From Tissierellia bacterium (GTDB lineage: Bacteria; Bacillota; Clostridia; Tissierellales; Tissierellaceae): a stretch of 64,000 nucleotides of DNA. The position numbers and the translations under genes are program-made. Shown in pieces: positions 54,819 through 59,842 of this stretch. A model generated the notes under the pieces. That model worked only from the letters and a program-made list of their open reading frames with translations, was not told where the DNA came from and did no database searches. The stretch covers positions 1-64,000 of the forward strand of contig JAAYTL010000118.1 of the NCBI GenBank assembly GCA_012518035.1. Direction: 5' to 3'. Within the stretch, counting starts at the first letter, position 1, and every line of letters starts with the position of its first letter.

Positions 54819-55364
54819 TTACTCATTGAACTCTTCCTTTAATATTGCGTAGCTTTTTAAGTCAATTGCCACACCATTCTTGATAATATCTTGTCTCCGT
54901 GTGCCTTCATACTTCATTCCTATTTTTTCCATTACTTTGTAGGAAGCCACATTGCTTTCCATGGCTAATGCGTATATCCTATTTAAATTCAGCTCTTTAA
55001 ATCCAAAGGCTAAAAGAGCCCTTGATGCTTCAGTACAATAACCCTTACTCCAATAAGGAACTCCAATCCAGTAGACTAGTTCTGCTTTCCTGTGAGTATT
55101 ATTTATATGTAATCCTACTGTACCTACTAATTCATTGTCTTCCTTCTTCACTATGGCATATATAATCCCTTTCTTATTAATAAAGATATCCTTGTGCATA
55201 TTAATCCATGCTTCCGCCATCCCATCCTCATATGGATGTGGTACATTTAAAGTTGTTTCGGCAACTTTTGGATCACCTGCTAATTCTCTTACTCTACTAG
55301 AATCACGTAGTTCAAATGGTCTTAATTGTAATCTATCTGTATTGATTATTGGTTGTTTACACAT
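54819..55364 (-). CDS. GNAT acetyltransferase, RimJ/RimL type
   Basis: The sequence begins IINTDRLQLRPFELRD as in ribosomal-protein N-acetyltransferases, with the acetyl-CoA segment YWIGVPYWSKGYCTEASRAL and the ending NVASYKVMEKIGMKYEG. It acetylates an unknown amine, protein N-terminus or small molecule. The ATG at 55364 is preferred (AGGGGATATAGAA upstream; it places the domain start properly); the ORF also extends to an ATG at 55409. No operon partners. Confidence 0.87.
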   Translation of the reverse strand: MCKQPIINTDRLQLRPFELRDSSRVRELAGDPKVAETTLNVPHPYEDGMAEAWINMHKDIFINKKGIIYAIVKKEDNELVGTVGLHINNTHRKAELVYWIGVPYWSKGYCTEASRALLAFGFKELNLNRIYALAMESNVASYKVMEKIGMKYEGTRRQDIIKNGVAIDLKSYAILKEEFNE

Positions 55365-55462
55365 TTCTATATCCCCTATTTTATTAGATTTGTGATTAAT
55401 AGACTCCATTACTCACCGTTGATAATAAAGAATTTACTAGTCGCACTTGTCTCTTACTAGAT

Positions 55463-56314
55463 CTATTCATTATACAAGGTGACCTTGATTATCTGAGGTC
55501 TGTTGAAGATTCTTATGGGAATTATACTATTACCTAGTCCTCTGCTAACGTACATGGTTGAATCTTCAACTGTATAAGGTCCACTTGAGTACTTGGGGAA
55601 AATTCCCTGGTCTGGTGCTATTAACCCACCTAAGCCTGGTATTCTAAACTGGCCTCCATGAGCATGTCCAGAAAATATCATGTCAACACCATAAGAAGCG
55701 TATATATCGATTAACTCTGGTCTATGGGACAGAAGAATTTGAAAAGTATCATAATCGACTAAGCTTGACAAATGCTCTTCTAAATTGGCTGTAATTACAC
55801 CATCTAGGTAACTCCTTGTAAGGAAATTAGGGTCCGATAGACCTAAAATTTCTAATGCACTATTTCCCTTAACTAATCCTACCTTAGTATCATCAAGGAC
55901 TACTACACCTAGGTCTATCAATCCACTATGTATGTCTTCATACTTCCCTAACCAGGCCTCATGGTTACCAGAAACATAATAGACTGGAGCGATTTCCATT
56001 GCACCTTCAATAAAGGTAAGGGCTTGACCTAAGTTATACCTTCTCCTATCTATTAAATCCCCTGTAATTACTATAAGATCCGGTTCAGTTGAGCTAAGCT
56101 TGTCTAAAAGATACTTTTGGTTCTTTCCGAAGGATTTATTATGTAAATCAGAAATATGGGCTATGGTAAGCTCATTAAAACCTTTAGGTACTTTGCTACT
56201 CTTATAGATGAAGCTAGAAATTACTATATGGTTATTTTGCCAAAAACAAAACACAATCATGAGTATGATGATACTTATTAAGATTGGCATCCTCCTAATT
56301 CTCCTGGACTTCAT
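55463..56314 (-). CDS. Membrane-anchored metallophosphoesterase (YkuE/YaeI type)
   Basis: An N-terminal membrane helix (about residues 10-27) precedes a calcineurin-like domain with the full metal motif set: IAHISDLHNKSFG (DxH), VITGDLIDRR (GDxxDR), YVSGNHEAW (GNHE), ILLSHRPE and FSGHAHGGQF (GHxH). Relatives hydrolyse lipid-linked or cell-wall phosphoesters; the substrate here is unknown. GGAAGTGTTATTAAT precedes the ATG. It follows the ABC-F gene by 40 bases and could share its transcript. Confidence 0.92.
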   Translation of the reverse strand: MKSRRIRRMPILISIIILMIVFCFWQNNHIVISSFIYKSSKVPKGFNELTIAHISDLHNKSFGKNQKYLLDKLSSTEPDLIVITGDLIDRRRYNLGQALTFIEGAMEIAPVYYVSGNHEAWLGKYEDIHSGLIDLGVVVLDDTKVGLVKGNSALEILGLSDPNFLTRSYLDGVITANLEEHLSSLVDYDTFQILLSHRPELIDIYASYGVDMIFSGHAHGGQFRIPGLGGLIAPDQGIFPKYSSGPYTVEDSTMYVSRGLGNSIIPIRIFNRPQIIKVTLYNE

Positions 56315-56354: not shown

Positions 56355-57995
56355 TTATAGTAAGGACTTCAAATCCCTTAATTTTGTTAGGAGTTCATAG
56401 TACTCCTGGTCTAATACTTCTATTTCCTCACTATTAGATTCTATAGATAACTTACCTATCACTTCTGAAATCCGTGTTTCAAGTACCATGATTCTTTTTT
56501 TTATTTCTTCTTTATCCTGTGACTTATCTATTCTTTCTAGAAATTCTTCATATCTACCCTTGAACATATGAATCTTATGATTCTCTATTGTCATAATATG
56601 ATCTGCAATTGAACTGATAAATCTTCTATCATGGGAAACAAATAATAGCGTTTTATCATATTCCTTCAATAGGGATTCTATTGCTTCAAGGGAGTCTACA
56701 TCCAGATAGTTTGTGGGTTCATCTAATATAAGTAAGTTGTTGTCTTGTAGTATTAGCTTAGCAAAAGATACCTTGACTAGTTCTCCTCCACTTAAAACAC
56801 TAACTTTTTTATATACTGTATCCCCCTTAAATAGTAACCTTGCTAGAATCAATCTTGCTAAATTCTCAGGATAAAAACTCGTATTCATCACGTTTTCAAG
56901 AATATTTAAATCTTGGTCTAAAATATCCATGTCTTGACTAAAATATCCAATCCTAGCCTTTTGTGCAATTTTAATTCCTTCTTCTTTATTGATAATCATC
57001 TTAATTAGGGTACTTTTACCAGATCCATTGGGTCCTAATAGGGCTACCTTGTTACCATTATAGATAGTAAAATCTGCATCCTTAAATATAATCTTATCCT
57101 CGAACTTCTTATTAATATCCTGTCCTTCAATTATAATTCGACTATAAAGATTACTAGAACCCAACATCTCAATCTTGATTTTTCTAGCTTCTATGGGATT
57201 ATCCTTCTCTTCTAAGTGTTCAATTCTCTTTCTTAGATTATTTATTTTCTTTTCAAGGTTTGCCTTTGATTTTTGTCCCCCCATCTTATGAAGTCTTGCT
57301 TCTGAAATTCCCATTCTCTTTGGTGGTCCTTTAATACTTAGAGATTTTTGTCGAGTGTCTTGGATGATGGCTTCAAGTCTTTTCTTCTCATTTATATACT
57401 GATTATACTCAAATAAGGCCCTTTCTCTTTCGTCTTCTTTCTGCTTCCGATAATCTGTATAATTACCATTATAAACTTTTATCTTAGCATTCTCTACTTC
57501 AATAATCTTATTGCATAACTTATCAAGTAAATCTCTATCGTGGGATATGATGATCAGGGTTCCCTTGTATTCATTCAGTCTTTCTTCTAATAGTCTTATT
57601 CCATCTATATCCAGATTACTAGTAGGTTCATCAGCAAATATTATTTCACTATCCTTATCCAAGGCTTGAGCTAGTTTAAATCTTGTCTTTTCCCCACCAC
57701 TCATATTATCATTCCAGGTACTTGCTACTCTAAACTTAGAAGACATTTCGCTGCTGATATTCTTGTGATCAGGCCTACCAGATTGAGAAATATAGACAAA
57801 TTCTCCAAGGAGTTTTACCCGACCTTCATCAGGATTTATTCTTTGGCTAAGAATGTCTATCAAGGTTGTTTTACCTGCACCATTTAAACCAACTATGCCA
57901 ATACGGTCACCTAGGTATATCTTTAATTCGTCTATATCTAAAATTAGCTTGTATCCATAGAATTTCTTAACCTTATTTAATTCAAGTAATAACAT
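56355..57995 (-). CDS. ABC-F ribosome-protection ATPase (VmlR/Vga/CplR-like)
   Basis: Soluble twin-ATPase protein: first domain GLNGAGKTT, MSGGEKTR, IIFADEPTSNLD; second domain GPNGSGKSTL, LSGGELVK, LLILDEPTNYLD. It has no membrane domain. The interdomain linker (about 190-290) holds KGPPKRMGISEARLHKM, a stretch shared with Vga/VmlR/MsrA-type resistance ABC-Fs, and a charged C-terminal extension follows the second domain. At 546 residues it is VmlR-sized. Such proteins dislodge pleuromutilins, lincosamides and streptogramin A from ribosomes; resistance here is inferred. A 250-nt structured leader with SD-masking hairpin precedes it. Confidence 0.88.
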   Translation of the reverse strand: MLLLELNKVKKFYGYKLILDIDELKIYLGDRIGIVGLNGAGKTTLIDILSQRINPDEGRVKLLGEFVYISQSGRPDHKNISSEMSSKFRVASTWNDNMSGGEKTRFKLAQALDKDSEIIFADEPTSNLDIDGIRLLEERLNEYKGTLIIISHDRDLLDKLCNKIIEVENAKIKVYNGNYTDYRKQKEDERERALFEYNQYINEKKRLEAIIQDTRQKSLSIKGPPKRMGISEARLHKMGGQKSKANLEKKINNLRKRIEHLEEKDNPIEARKIKIEMLGSSNLYSRIIIEGQDINKKFEDKIIFKDADFTIYNGNKVALLGPNGSGKSTLIKMIINKEEGIKIAQKARIGYFSQDMDILDQDLNILENVMNTSFYPENLARLILARLLFKGDTVYKKVSVLSGGELVKVSFAKLILQDNNLLILDEPTNYLDVDSLEAIESLLKEYDKTLLFVSHDRRFISSIADHIMTIENHKIHMFKGRYEEFLERIDKSQDKEEIKKRIMVLETRISEVIGKLSIESNSEEIEVLDQEYYELLTKLRDLKSLL

Positions 57996-57999
57996 AAAA

Positions 58000-58020
58000 T
58001 CCTCCTTTTTTCTAGGAGGA
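58000..58020 (-). promoter_or_regulatory. Shine-Dalgarno-sequestering hairpin of the ABC-F gene
   Basis: TCCTCC and GGAGGA pair perfectly around a nine-base A-rich loop. GGAGGA is the ribosome site, four bases before the ATG, so the hairpin would block translation. Confidence 0.68.
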
Positions 58021-58117
58021 TAGTATTCTTAACAATAACTCTATTAGTATGAGAAGTAAGTCAACAAAATTGTTGACTTTTTTTAATAGCAAGTTATTAT
58101 AGCTGTTGATACTATCC
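58018..58117 (-). repeat. Nested inverted repeat in the ABC-F leader
   Basis: Four pairs of arms are complementary in nested order (minus strand): GGATAGTAT/ATACTATCC, AATAACT/AGTTATT, CTATTA/TAATAG and AAGTCAACAA/TTGTTGACTT. The outer right arm shares its last three bases (TCC) with the sequence that masks the ribosome site, so the two structures exclude each other in part. Confidence 0.78.
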
Positions 58118-58206
58118 ACCTATATAATGCATAAGAAACAGGTAAAAGAATCATTAAAATAATGATTCATGCCGATATCTTGTTAATCTTCTAATAGTAA
58201 AGTGGA

Positions 58207-58218
58207 TTATATGAACAT
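58207..58218 (-). CDS. Candidate three-codon leader ORF (M-F-I) upstream of the ABC-F gene
   Basis: ATG TTC ATA TAA begins at 58218, about 30 nt from the predicted transcript start. Purine-rich AAGAGG, AAAGG and CAAGG lie upstream, the nearest (CAAGG) about ten bases from the ATG. A very short leader peptide would fit an antibiotic-sensing switch, but an ATG this short could also arise by chance. A second possible ORF of 16 codons starts at 58170 without a clear ribosome site. Confidence 0.4.
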   Translation of the reverse strand: MFI

Positions 58219-58253
58219 TCTATAAATACCTTGCCTTTCCTCTTGATAATTTA

Positions 58254-58281
58254 ATTATATCATCATTATATTTAGTGTCAA
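58254..58281 (-). promoter_or_regulatory. Consensus sigma-A promoter of the ABC-F gene
   Basis: Perfect TTGACA (58281-58276) and perfect TATAAT (58259-58254) separated by 16 bp on the minus strand, right behind the selO stop. Confidence 0.85.
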
Positions 58282-58304: not shown

Positions 58305-59768
58305 CTAGGTTCCACAAAAGGTTCTATAATTTCTATTGGGATTGGGGTCAAGTTGGGCATACTTTTCCTGCTGGCAAGTATAGCCGTAAGGGTTAGATAA
58401 GGCTTCTAAAAGTTCCTCCATAACCCTTAATTCTCCCTTATTAACTGCTGCATCTAGGGCTTCTTCAACCCTATAATTTCTAGGTATTATAGCTGGATTA
58501 TTTCCCTTCATCTGCCTTACCCTCTCTGCCTTTGGTTTGCCTTCCTTAGCTAATCTTGACTCCCACCTTCCCTTCCATTGGGAAAACTCTTCACTTGCAA
58601 AAAGCTCCATACCAGATAAGTCATCAATGCTTAGGGCCCTAAAGGTATTTGTAAAGTCTGCCCTATACTTCTTCATCAAGGATAACAAGTCCATAATTAT
58701 GGACTCATCACCTGATTCTGCCTCAAATATACCTAATTTCCTTCTCATTCCATCTATCCACAAGTCATTATAGGTATGCGTGAAGTCTACTATAGCCTCA
58801 TTTGCTAATTCTAAGGCCCTATCAGCATCATCATGGATAAGGGGAAGGAGGGTCTCAGCGAATCTAGCTAAATTCCAGGCTGCAATCATAGGTTGATTGC
58901 CATAGGCATATCTACCTTGTCTATCGATTGAAGAAAAGACTGTAGCAGGATTATAGGCATCCATAAAGGCGCAAGGTCCATAATCAATGGTTTCTCCGCT
59001 AATAGCCATGTTGTCTGTATTCATAACCCCATGGATAAAACCCACTAGCTGCCATTTTGCAATTAAGGTTGCCTGTTTCTTGACAACCTCCTTGAGAAAT
59101 TTTAGATATCTATTGTCTCCAACTTCTATAATATCAGGGAAATGTCTCTCTATGGTGTAGTCAGCAAGTTCCTTTAGTTCTCCTAGGCTTTCATAGGTGC
59201 TAATATACTGGAAGGTTCCGACCCTGATATGACTTGAAGCGACCCTGGTTAAAATTGCACCAGCTAAAGGTTGCTCCCTTAGGATCACCTCTCCTGTAGT
59301 TACCACTGCCAGGCTCCTGCTAGAGGGAATGCCTAGCTTATGCATTGCTTCACTGATGATGTATTCCCTAAGCATGGGTCCTAGAGCTGCCCTCCCATCC
59401 CCTCCACGAGAATAGGGAGTCCTGCCTGATCCTTTCAATTGAATATCATATCGCTTACCCTTAGGAGTGATATGCTCTCCCAGTAATAGGGCCCGCCCAT
59501 CACCTAACATAGTAAAGTGGCCAAATTGATGGCCAGCATAGGCTTGGGCAATAGGTAACCCACCCTCTGGAATCCTATTCCCAGATAAAACACTTACTCC
59601 CTCTTCGCTTTTTAACCCATCTATATTAAGTCCTAATTCTCCTACTAACTCTTCATTCAAAACCACTATCTTTGGGGCCTTAACTGGGTTTAGTCTTATC
59701 CTAGAAAATAGGTTTGGACTTAAATTTACATAGGTGTTTTGAAAGTTCCACCCCATATTATTATTCAT
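58305..59768 (-). CDS. selO: Protein adenylyltransferase SelO (YdiU)
   Basis: Pseudokinase-fold enzyme that transfers AMP to protein hydroxyls. Signature regions: [20 protein letters not shown] (quoted to 20), [36 protein letters not shown] and the catalytic loop [16 protein letters not shown] with DYGPCAFMD. The C-terminus ends FCGT, close to the Cys-x-x tail typical of bacterial members. The ATG at 59768 has AAGG about eight bases upstream; an ATG at 59777 is directly on that site. The gene appears to be transcribed on its own; a redox link is known only for other SelO proteins. Confidence 0.93.
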
Positions 59769-59842
59769 TAAATTCATTCCTTTATTTATAATCTATAACT
59801 TATTATCTACATACAGCTAAATAATATTAGTATCTTTGGATT

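Follow-up and report, generated by a model that had tools for sequence, protein, structure and literature searches.

What would keep the ABC-F gene of this window (the whole 64,000-nt stretch of DNA analysed here) from being translated when its ribosome site is folded away, and what would release it? The earlier note had proposed that a nested inverted repeat competes with an SD-masking hairpin in the leader and that ribosomes stalled by an antibiotic switch translation of the gene; it did not say which state is the default. All four arm pairs and the masking hairpin are present on the minus strand: the outer arms GGAUAGUAU (58117-58109) and AUACUAUCC (58026-58018) with 9 bp, the arms AAUAACU (58098-58092) and AGUUAUU (58040-58034) with 7 bp, the arms CUAUUA (58089-58084) and UAAUAG (58046-58041) with 6 bp, the innermost arms AAGUCAACA(A) and (U)UGUUGACUU (about 58080-58057) with 9-10 bp, and the mask UCCUCC (58020-58015) over GGAGGA (58005-58000). 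The UCC at 58020-58018 is used by the mask as well as by the right outer arm; outer-arm pairing and SD masking are therefore mutually exclusive, as had been claimed. The 130-nt segment 57993-58122 folds at -33.3 kcal/mol compared with -19.1 +/- 2.9 kcal/mol for shuffled sequences (z -4.89, 0/200), and the longer stretch 57960-58250 (291 nt) has a z of -3.48 (0/200).

These elements form the 3' half of a minus-strand leader of about 250 nt that lies between a SelO-type gene (58305-59777) and the ABC-F gene. The 5' half, 58281-58118, was left out of the earlier coordinates and contains a promoter, a uORF and a competing helix (Table 1). Promoters with 12/12 consensus matches and a 17-nt spacer occur at the equivalent position in the related leaders L002, L003, L004, L006, L036, L038 and L041, and from the position of the promoter in this genome (58281-58254) we predict that the transcript starts near 58247. 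The uORF would begin about 30 nt beyond this start, behind GAGGAAAGGCAAGG. Because arm A, which holds the uORF, also pairs with the left outer arm of the repeat, we describe the leader as a four-part (1-2-3-4) attenuator composed of A:B (P1), B:C (P2) and C:SD (P3), in which P1 and P2 both use arm B, so that the uORF-bearing 5' hairpin and the antiterminator exclude each other. The earlier description of the leader was accurate for the repeats; it overlooked the candidate sensor uORF and the pairing of the left arm with the uORF region. The hairpin in the P1 loop may make RNA polymerase pause, given a position like that of SL-2 in the vmlR leader (PMC9226507); the relatives have a U-rich stretch (often UUUUGUUGUG) at the same place after this hairpin.

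Table 1. Features of the ABC-F leader and gene, in the direction of transcription
Feature	Coordinates	Strand	Basis or remark
Promoter TTGACA-16-TATAAT, TG before the second hexamer	58254..58281	-	sigma-70, 12/12 consensus matches
GAGGAAAGGCAAGG, probable ribosome site of the uORF	58229..58242	-	AAAGG..AAGG conserved before the uORF in relatives
uORF AUG UUC AUA UAA (Met-Phe-Ile-stop, MFI), proposed antibiotic sensor	58207..58218	-	2-3 codon uORF in this position in 43 homologous leaders
Arm A, 5' strand of P1 (anti-antiterminator), holds the uORF	58200..58235	-	MFE structure of the free leader; AUCCAC/GUGGAU core conserved
P1-loop hairpin GAAUCAUUA/UAAUGAUUC, then CUUUU	58148..58168	-	folds in every state
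Arm B	58088..58122	-	58121-58088 is the P1 3' strand; 58122-58109 is also the P2 5' strand and includes the left outer arm
Inner arms of the nested repeat	58034..58098	-	7 bp, 6 bp and 9-10 bp hairpin 58079-58058; lengthen P2 in this genome
Arm C AUACUAUCCUCCUA	58013..58026	-	pairs with arm B (P2, predicted ON) or via UCCUCC with the SD (P3, predicted OFF)
P3 hairpin AUCCUCC...GGAGGAU, SD-masking, terminator-like	57999..58021	-	then UUUU only, counting its last U
GGAGGA, ABC-F ribosome site	58000..58005	-	four U separate GGAGGA from AUG 57995-57993
ABC-F ribosome-protection protein, 546 aa, ARE1 group (CplR/Vga-like)	56355..57995	-	NF000355, 519.9 bits

Folding predicts that this leader is OFF by default and turns ON once a ribosome is held at the uORF. 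In the free leader, the masked P3 state is favored over the P2 state by 9.9 kcal/mol of ensemble energy (-68.2 vs -58.3), and the probability that the SD is unpaired is 0.002. The earlier note had suggested that folds with and without a blocked upstream region be compared. When 58234-58202 is covered to mimic a ribosome at the start codon of the uORF, the masked state leads by only 1.1 kcal/mol (-51.2 vs -50.1); however, the SD of the complete leader is then just 3-5% open at equilibrium, and the proposed switch would therefore require co-transcriptional folding. In the covered nascent RNA that ends at 58012, where the SD has not yet been made, the best structure is P2, with UAGGUGGAUAGUAU paired with arm C.

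Based on these structures and on the homologous leaders described below, we hypothesize that the leader very probably works as a uORF-dependent, ribosome-dependent attenuator of the cplR type. In the absence of drug, arm A would pair with arm B (P1) and arm C would be left to pair with the SD (P3), masking the start site and keeping the gene OFF; some transcripts may in addition terminate at P3. A drug that arrests ribosomes at initiation or directly after it (by analogy a lincosamide, pleuromutilin or streptogramin A) would hold a ribosome on the MFI uORF, where it would cover arm A and free arm B. Arm B would then pair with arm C (P2) as soon as C is made, while the SD is still to be transcribed; the SD would emerge unpaired, allowing the ABC-F protein to be made.

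Within the order, 44 genomes, the present one among them, were found to carry a close ABC-F homologue, and the DNA upstream of these homologues was read together with earlier hits. In 43 leaders an AAAGG-type site precedes a uORF of two or three codons with UAA as its stop, and a C-rich arm masks the SD; these 43 are the leaders with an identified uORF (the automatic finder missed that of L005, which by eye reads AUG UUC AGA UAA). Covering the uORF increases the predicted P2 pairing, between arm B and the anti-SD arm, in 43/43 leaders, from a mean of 0.09 to 0.81. The increase exceeds 0.5 in 91% of the real leaders but in 1% of 258 dinucleotide-shuffled upstream cases, and in 23% when a neighboring 33-nt stretch is covered instead. 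A scan of 249 genomes of the order with the core A-N-B pattern TAATCCRCTT-N{65,95}-GTGGATAGT gave 8 hits, all located just before this ABC-F gene and none before other genes, and the B-C pattern has a single site in the present genome. The closest named genome, that of a Tissierella sp. MAG, is the sole close match among named relatives.

The homologous leaders form three clades that use different arms (GUGGAUAG/CUAUCC; GAAGG..GAUUA/UAAUCCCUUC; GGGAUUAG/UAUCCUCUCUAG), yet in every leader the arms match one another, so that they change in concert from clade to clade. The mean energy of the B:C duplex is -16.1 kcal/mol with a leader's own partner and -8.8 kcal/mol with partners from other clades, a comparison that leans towards P2, as folding helped to position the arm B windows; the A:B duplex, for which only the uORF stop was used to position arm A, has values of -10.9 (own) and -6.2 (other clades). 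The earlier note had asked for compensatory changes in an alignment of homologous leaders, and the outer arms (P2) have them at two AU/GC pairs: in clade I, pairs 17:50 and 18:49 switch between G-C and A-U, the former in 6 and the latter in 9 of 20 leaders. The P2 covariation score is 0.221 compared with 0.147 after shuffling, 0/500 shuffles attain the score of the real leaders, and slid registers give 0.03-0.13; the swaps may represent one or two inherited events. P1 covariation in clade I does not exceed that of shuffles (0.219 vs 0.220), so that P1 is judged by its conservation, with 91% of the core cells paired and mostly one-sided changes, and by the comparison between clades.

Only part of the nested repeat is a conserved unit. 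The conserved parts are the outer arms, the uORF helix and the SD hairpin, and the full 100-nt repeat is not conserved as a whole. Among the relatives examined, the 7-bp arm recurs in the same-genus leader L002 alone, and the 6-bp and 10-bp arms recur in none and appear private to this genome. The failure of the two innermost arm pairs to be conserved is what one would expect if the repeats were chance structures in AT-rich intergenic DNA, an explanation that holds only for these inner arms; in the case of the outer arms and the SD hairpin it is refuted by the folding strength of the 130-nt segment and by their conservation, with compensatory changes, in several families of the order, and as an account of the leader we give it practically no chance. 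On the plus strand, the innermost hairpin (58058-58079) resembles a terminator, with a stem followed by TTTTTAATAG, and no plus-strand gene lies just upstream.

The 43 leaders encode 19 different uORF peptides, including MRI, MRM, MK, MFI, MNK, MSI and MYN, a wider range than the MR[I/M] consensus published for clostridial cplR uORFs (PMC10201436). The conserved architecture together with freely varying uORF residues supports stalling at initiation over stalling on a specific peptide. Two-codon uORFs (AUG AAA/AAG UAA, Met-Lys-stop) occur in L004, L006, L035, L038, L039 and L040, of which two are identical and which come from several families of the order. These leaders keep the remaining parts of the switch, which suggests that stalling at initiation may be sufficient. 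The leader has one longer open frame that could encode a classical erm-type leader peptide, MNHYFNDSFTCFLCII (58170-58120), a 16-codon frame that ends at the left arm and whose UAG at 58122-58120 abuts arm B. However, its AUG has no ribosome site and lies at the hairpin that folds in every state, and the frame is missing from the sister leader L002, whereas the 2-3 codon uORF is found in all 43 leaders. We have rejected MNHYFNDSFTCFLCII as the leader peptide on account of its missing ribosome site and lack of conservation, and consider an erm-type attenuator highly improbable here.

That the uORF is kept while its amino acids vary fits a ribosome sensor, and this bears on the possibility that the leader responds to temperature, a metabolite or a protein rather than to ribosome stalling. 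The response is predicted from sequence, and SD hairpins can serve as thermometers; yet the downstream gene protects ribosomes, and a search of 4227 Rfam families, covering the whole window at the gathering score and the leader down to an E value of 10, gave no match at the gathering score and, at lower scores, nothing beyond chance matches. We regard a signal of this kind as very unlikely. Stall-switched translation of the ABC-F gene, the antibiotic response put forward by the earlier note, is the best-supported reading, given the cplR precedent and its layout, the uORF in 43 leaders and the covarying outer arms.

A further question is at which level such a switch would act. The hairpin 58021-57999 could be chiefly an intrinsic terminator that a stalled ribosome antiterminates, with SD masking secondary, as in vmlR. 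The hairpin is terminator-like and is followed by 5-7 U in 42/43 leaders (6-7 in 40, 5 in two more), and in Clostridioides difficile the cplR transcripts made in the absence of drug stop at the start codon (PMC10201436). In the present genome, however, only UUUU stands between the hairpin and the AUG, the shortest U-tract of the 43 leaders, and in C. difficile a U-tract mutant continues to be regulated by translation alone (PMC10201436). We treat transcription attenuation as a possible, though not the probable, main control. Equally tentative is the opposite extreme, that this lineage has largely abandoned transcription termination and switches by translation alone, an idea based on the U-tract shrunk to four and on the genome-specific stems that strengthen the antiterminator; if true, the leader would be a natural counterpart of the C. 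difficile U-tract mutant.

The gene at the end of the leader passes the NCBI general model for ribosomal protection-like ABC-F proteins (NF000355; cut-off 380) and is, by model score, an antibiotic-resistance ABC-F gene. Its best-scoring model is that of CplR (NF043038), at 634.6 bits; as this is below the cut-off of 780, we name the gene CplR-like and not CplR. Among the solved chains closest to it in sequence are those of a lincosamide-streptogramin A resistance protein (7nhl) and of Lmo0919 (7nhn), and by analogy the drug range would comprise lincosamides, pleuromutilins and streptogramin A. A gene for a YaeI-like phosphoesterase (55463-56314, minus strand) starts 40 bp past the ABC-F gene, from which no visible terminator separates it, and is followed by a gene for a GNAT acetyltransferase (54819-55409, minus strand). 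Both may be co-transcribed with the ABC-F gene and hence be under its control; in L002 the downstream neighbor looks different. For a Tissierella-like anaerobe, a CplR-like gene behind such a leader suggests an inducible resistance to blockers of the peptidyl transferase center that stays silent until challenged.

The earlier note had compared the leader with the attenuators of erm and cat genes. The leaders of erm genes encode longer arrest peptides on which macrolides stall ribosomes in a sequence-specific manner. The present leader resembles erm attenuators in its mutually exclusive hairpins and in an SD that would be hidden until a ribosome stalls upstream, but its uORF and those of its relatives have 2-3 codons with variable residues. 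The likeness thus applies to the exclusive pairings, and the match to erm and cat is less exact than that to cplR and vmlR. In C. difficile cplR and Bacillus subtilis vmlR, induction by PLSA drugs needs the start codon of the uORF (PMC10201436, PMC9226507). The vmlR leader (Takada et al. 2022, PMC9226507) follows the same logic, with induction by drugs that stall initiating ribosomes, and shares with our leader a three-codon uORF (MIN, located in the SL-1 bulge), a pause hairpin (putative in our leader) and an SD-sequestering hairpin; vmlR, however, has a terminator (SL-3) distinct from its SD hairpin (SL-4), whereas here one hairpin would do both. The cplR leader of C. difficile 630 (Obana et al. 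2023, PMC10201436) has the uORF MRI in a 5' hairpin, an antiterminator and a 3' terminator hairpin that hides the SD; its reporters are induced by retapamulin and lincomycin, lose induction when AUC replaces the AUG of the uORF, and are expressed constitutively when the SD-masking stem is broken (PMC10201436). The same source aligns the Listeria monocytogenes leader of Lmo0919/VgaL with those of clostridial cplR genes across the uORF and the anti-SD element. Our leader has the corresponding three-codon uORF in a 5' hairpin, an antiterminator alternative and a single 3' hairpin that resembles a terminator and at the same time masks the SD of an ARE1 ABC-F gene, and is of comparable length (about 250 nt vs 212 nt for cplR). 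It differs from C. difficile cplR in its uORF (MFI), its U-tract of 4, its genome-specific antiterminator stems and a protein that scores below the CplR cut-off. The MFI peptide and the short U-tract may matter little, because the vmlR uORF variants MDN and MDK work at least as well as MIN (PMC9226507) and the cplR U-tract mutant stays regulated. The details that are new are small (MFI instead of MR[I/M], the shortest U-tract of the 43 leaders and Met-Lys-stop uORFs in relatives), and the leader is most likely a new example of the switch worked out in C. difficile and not a new kind of switch.
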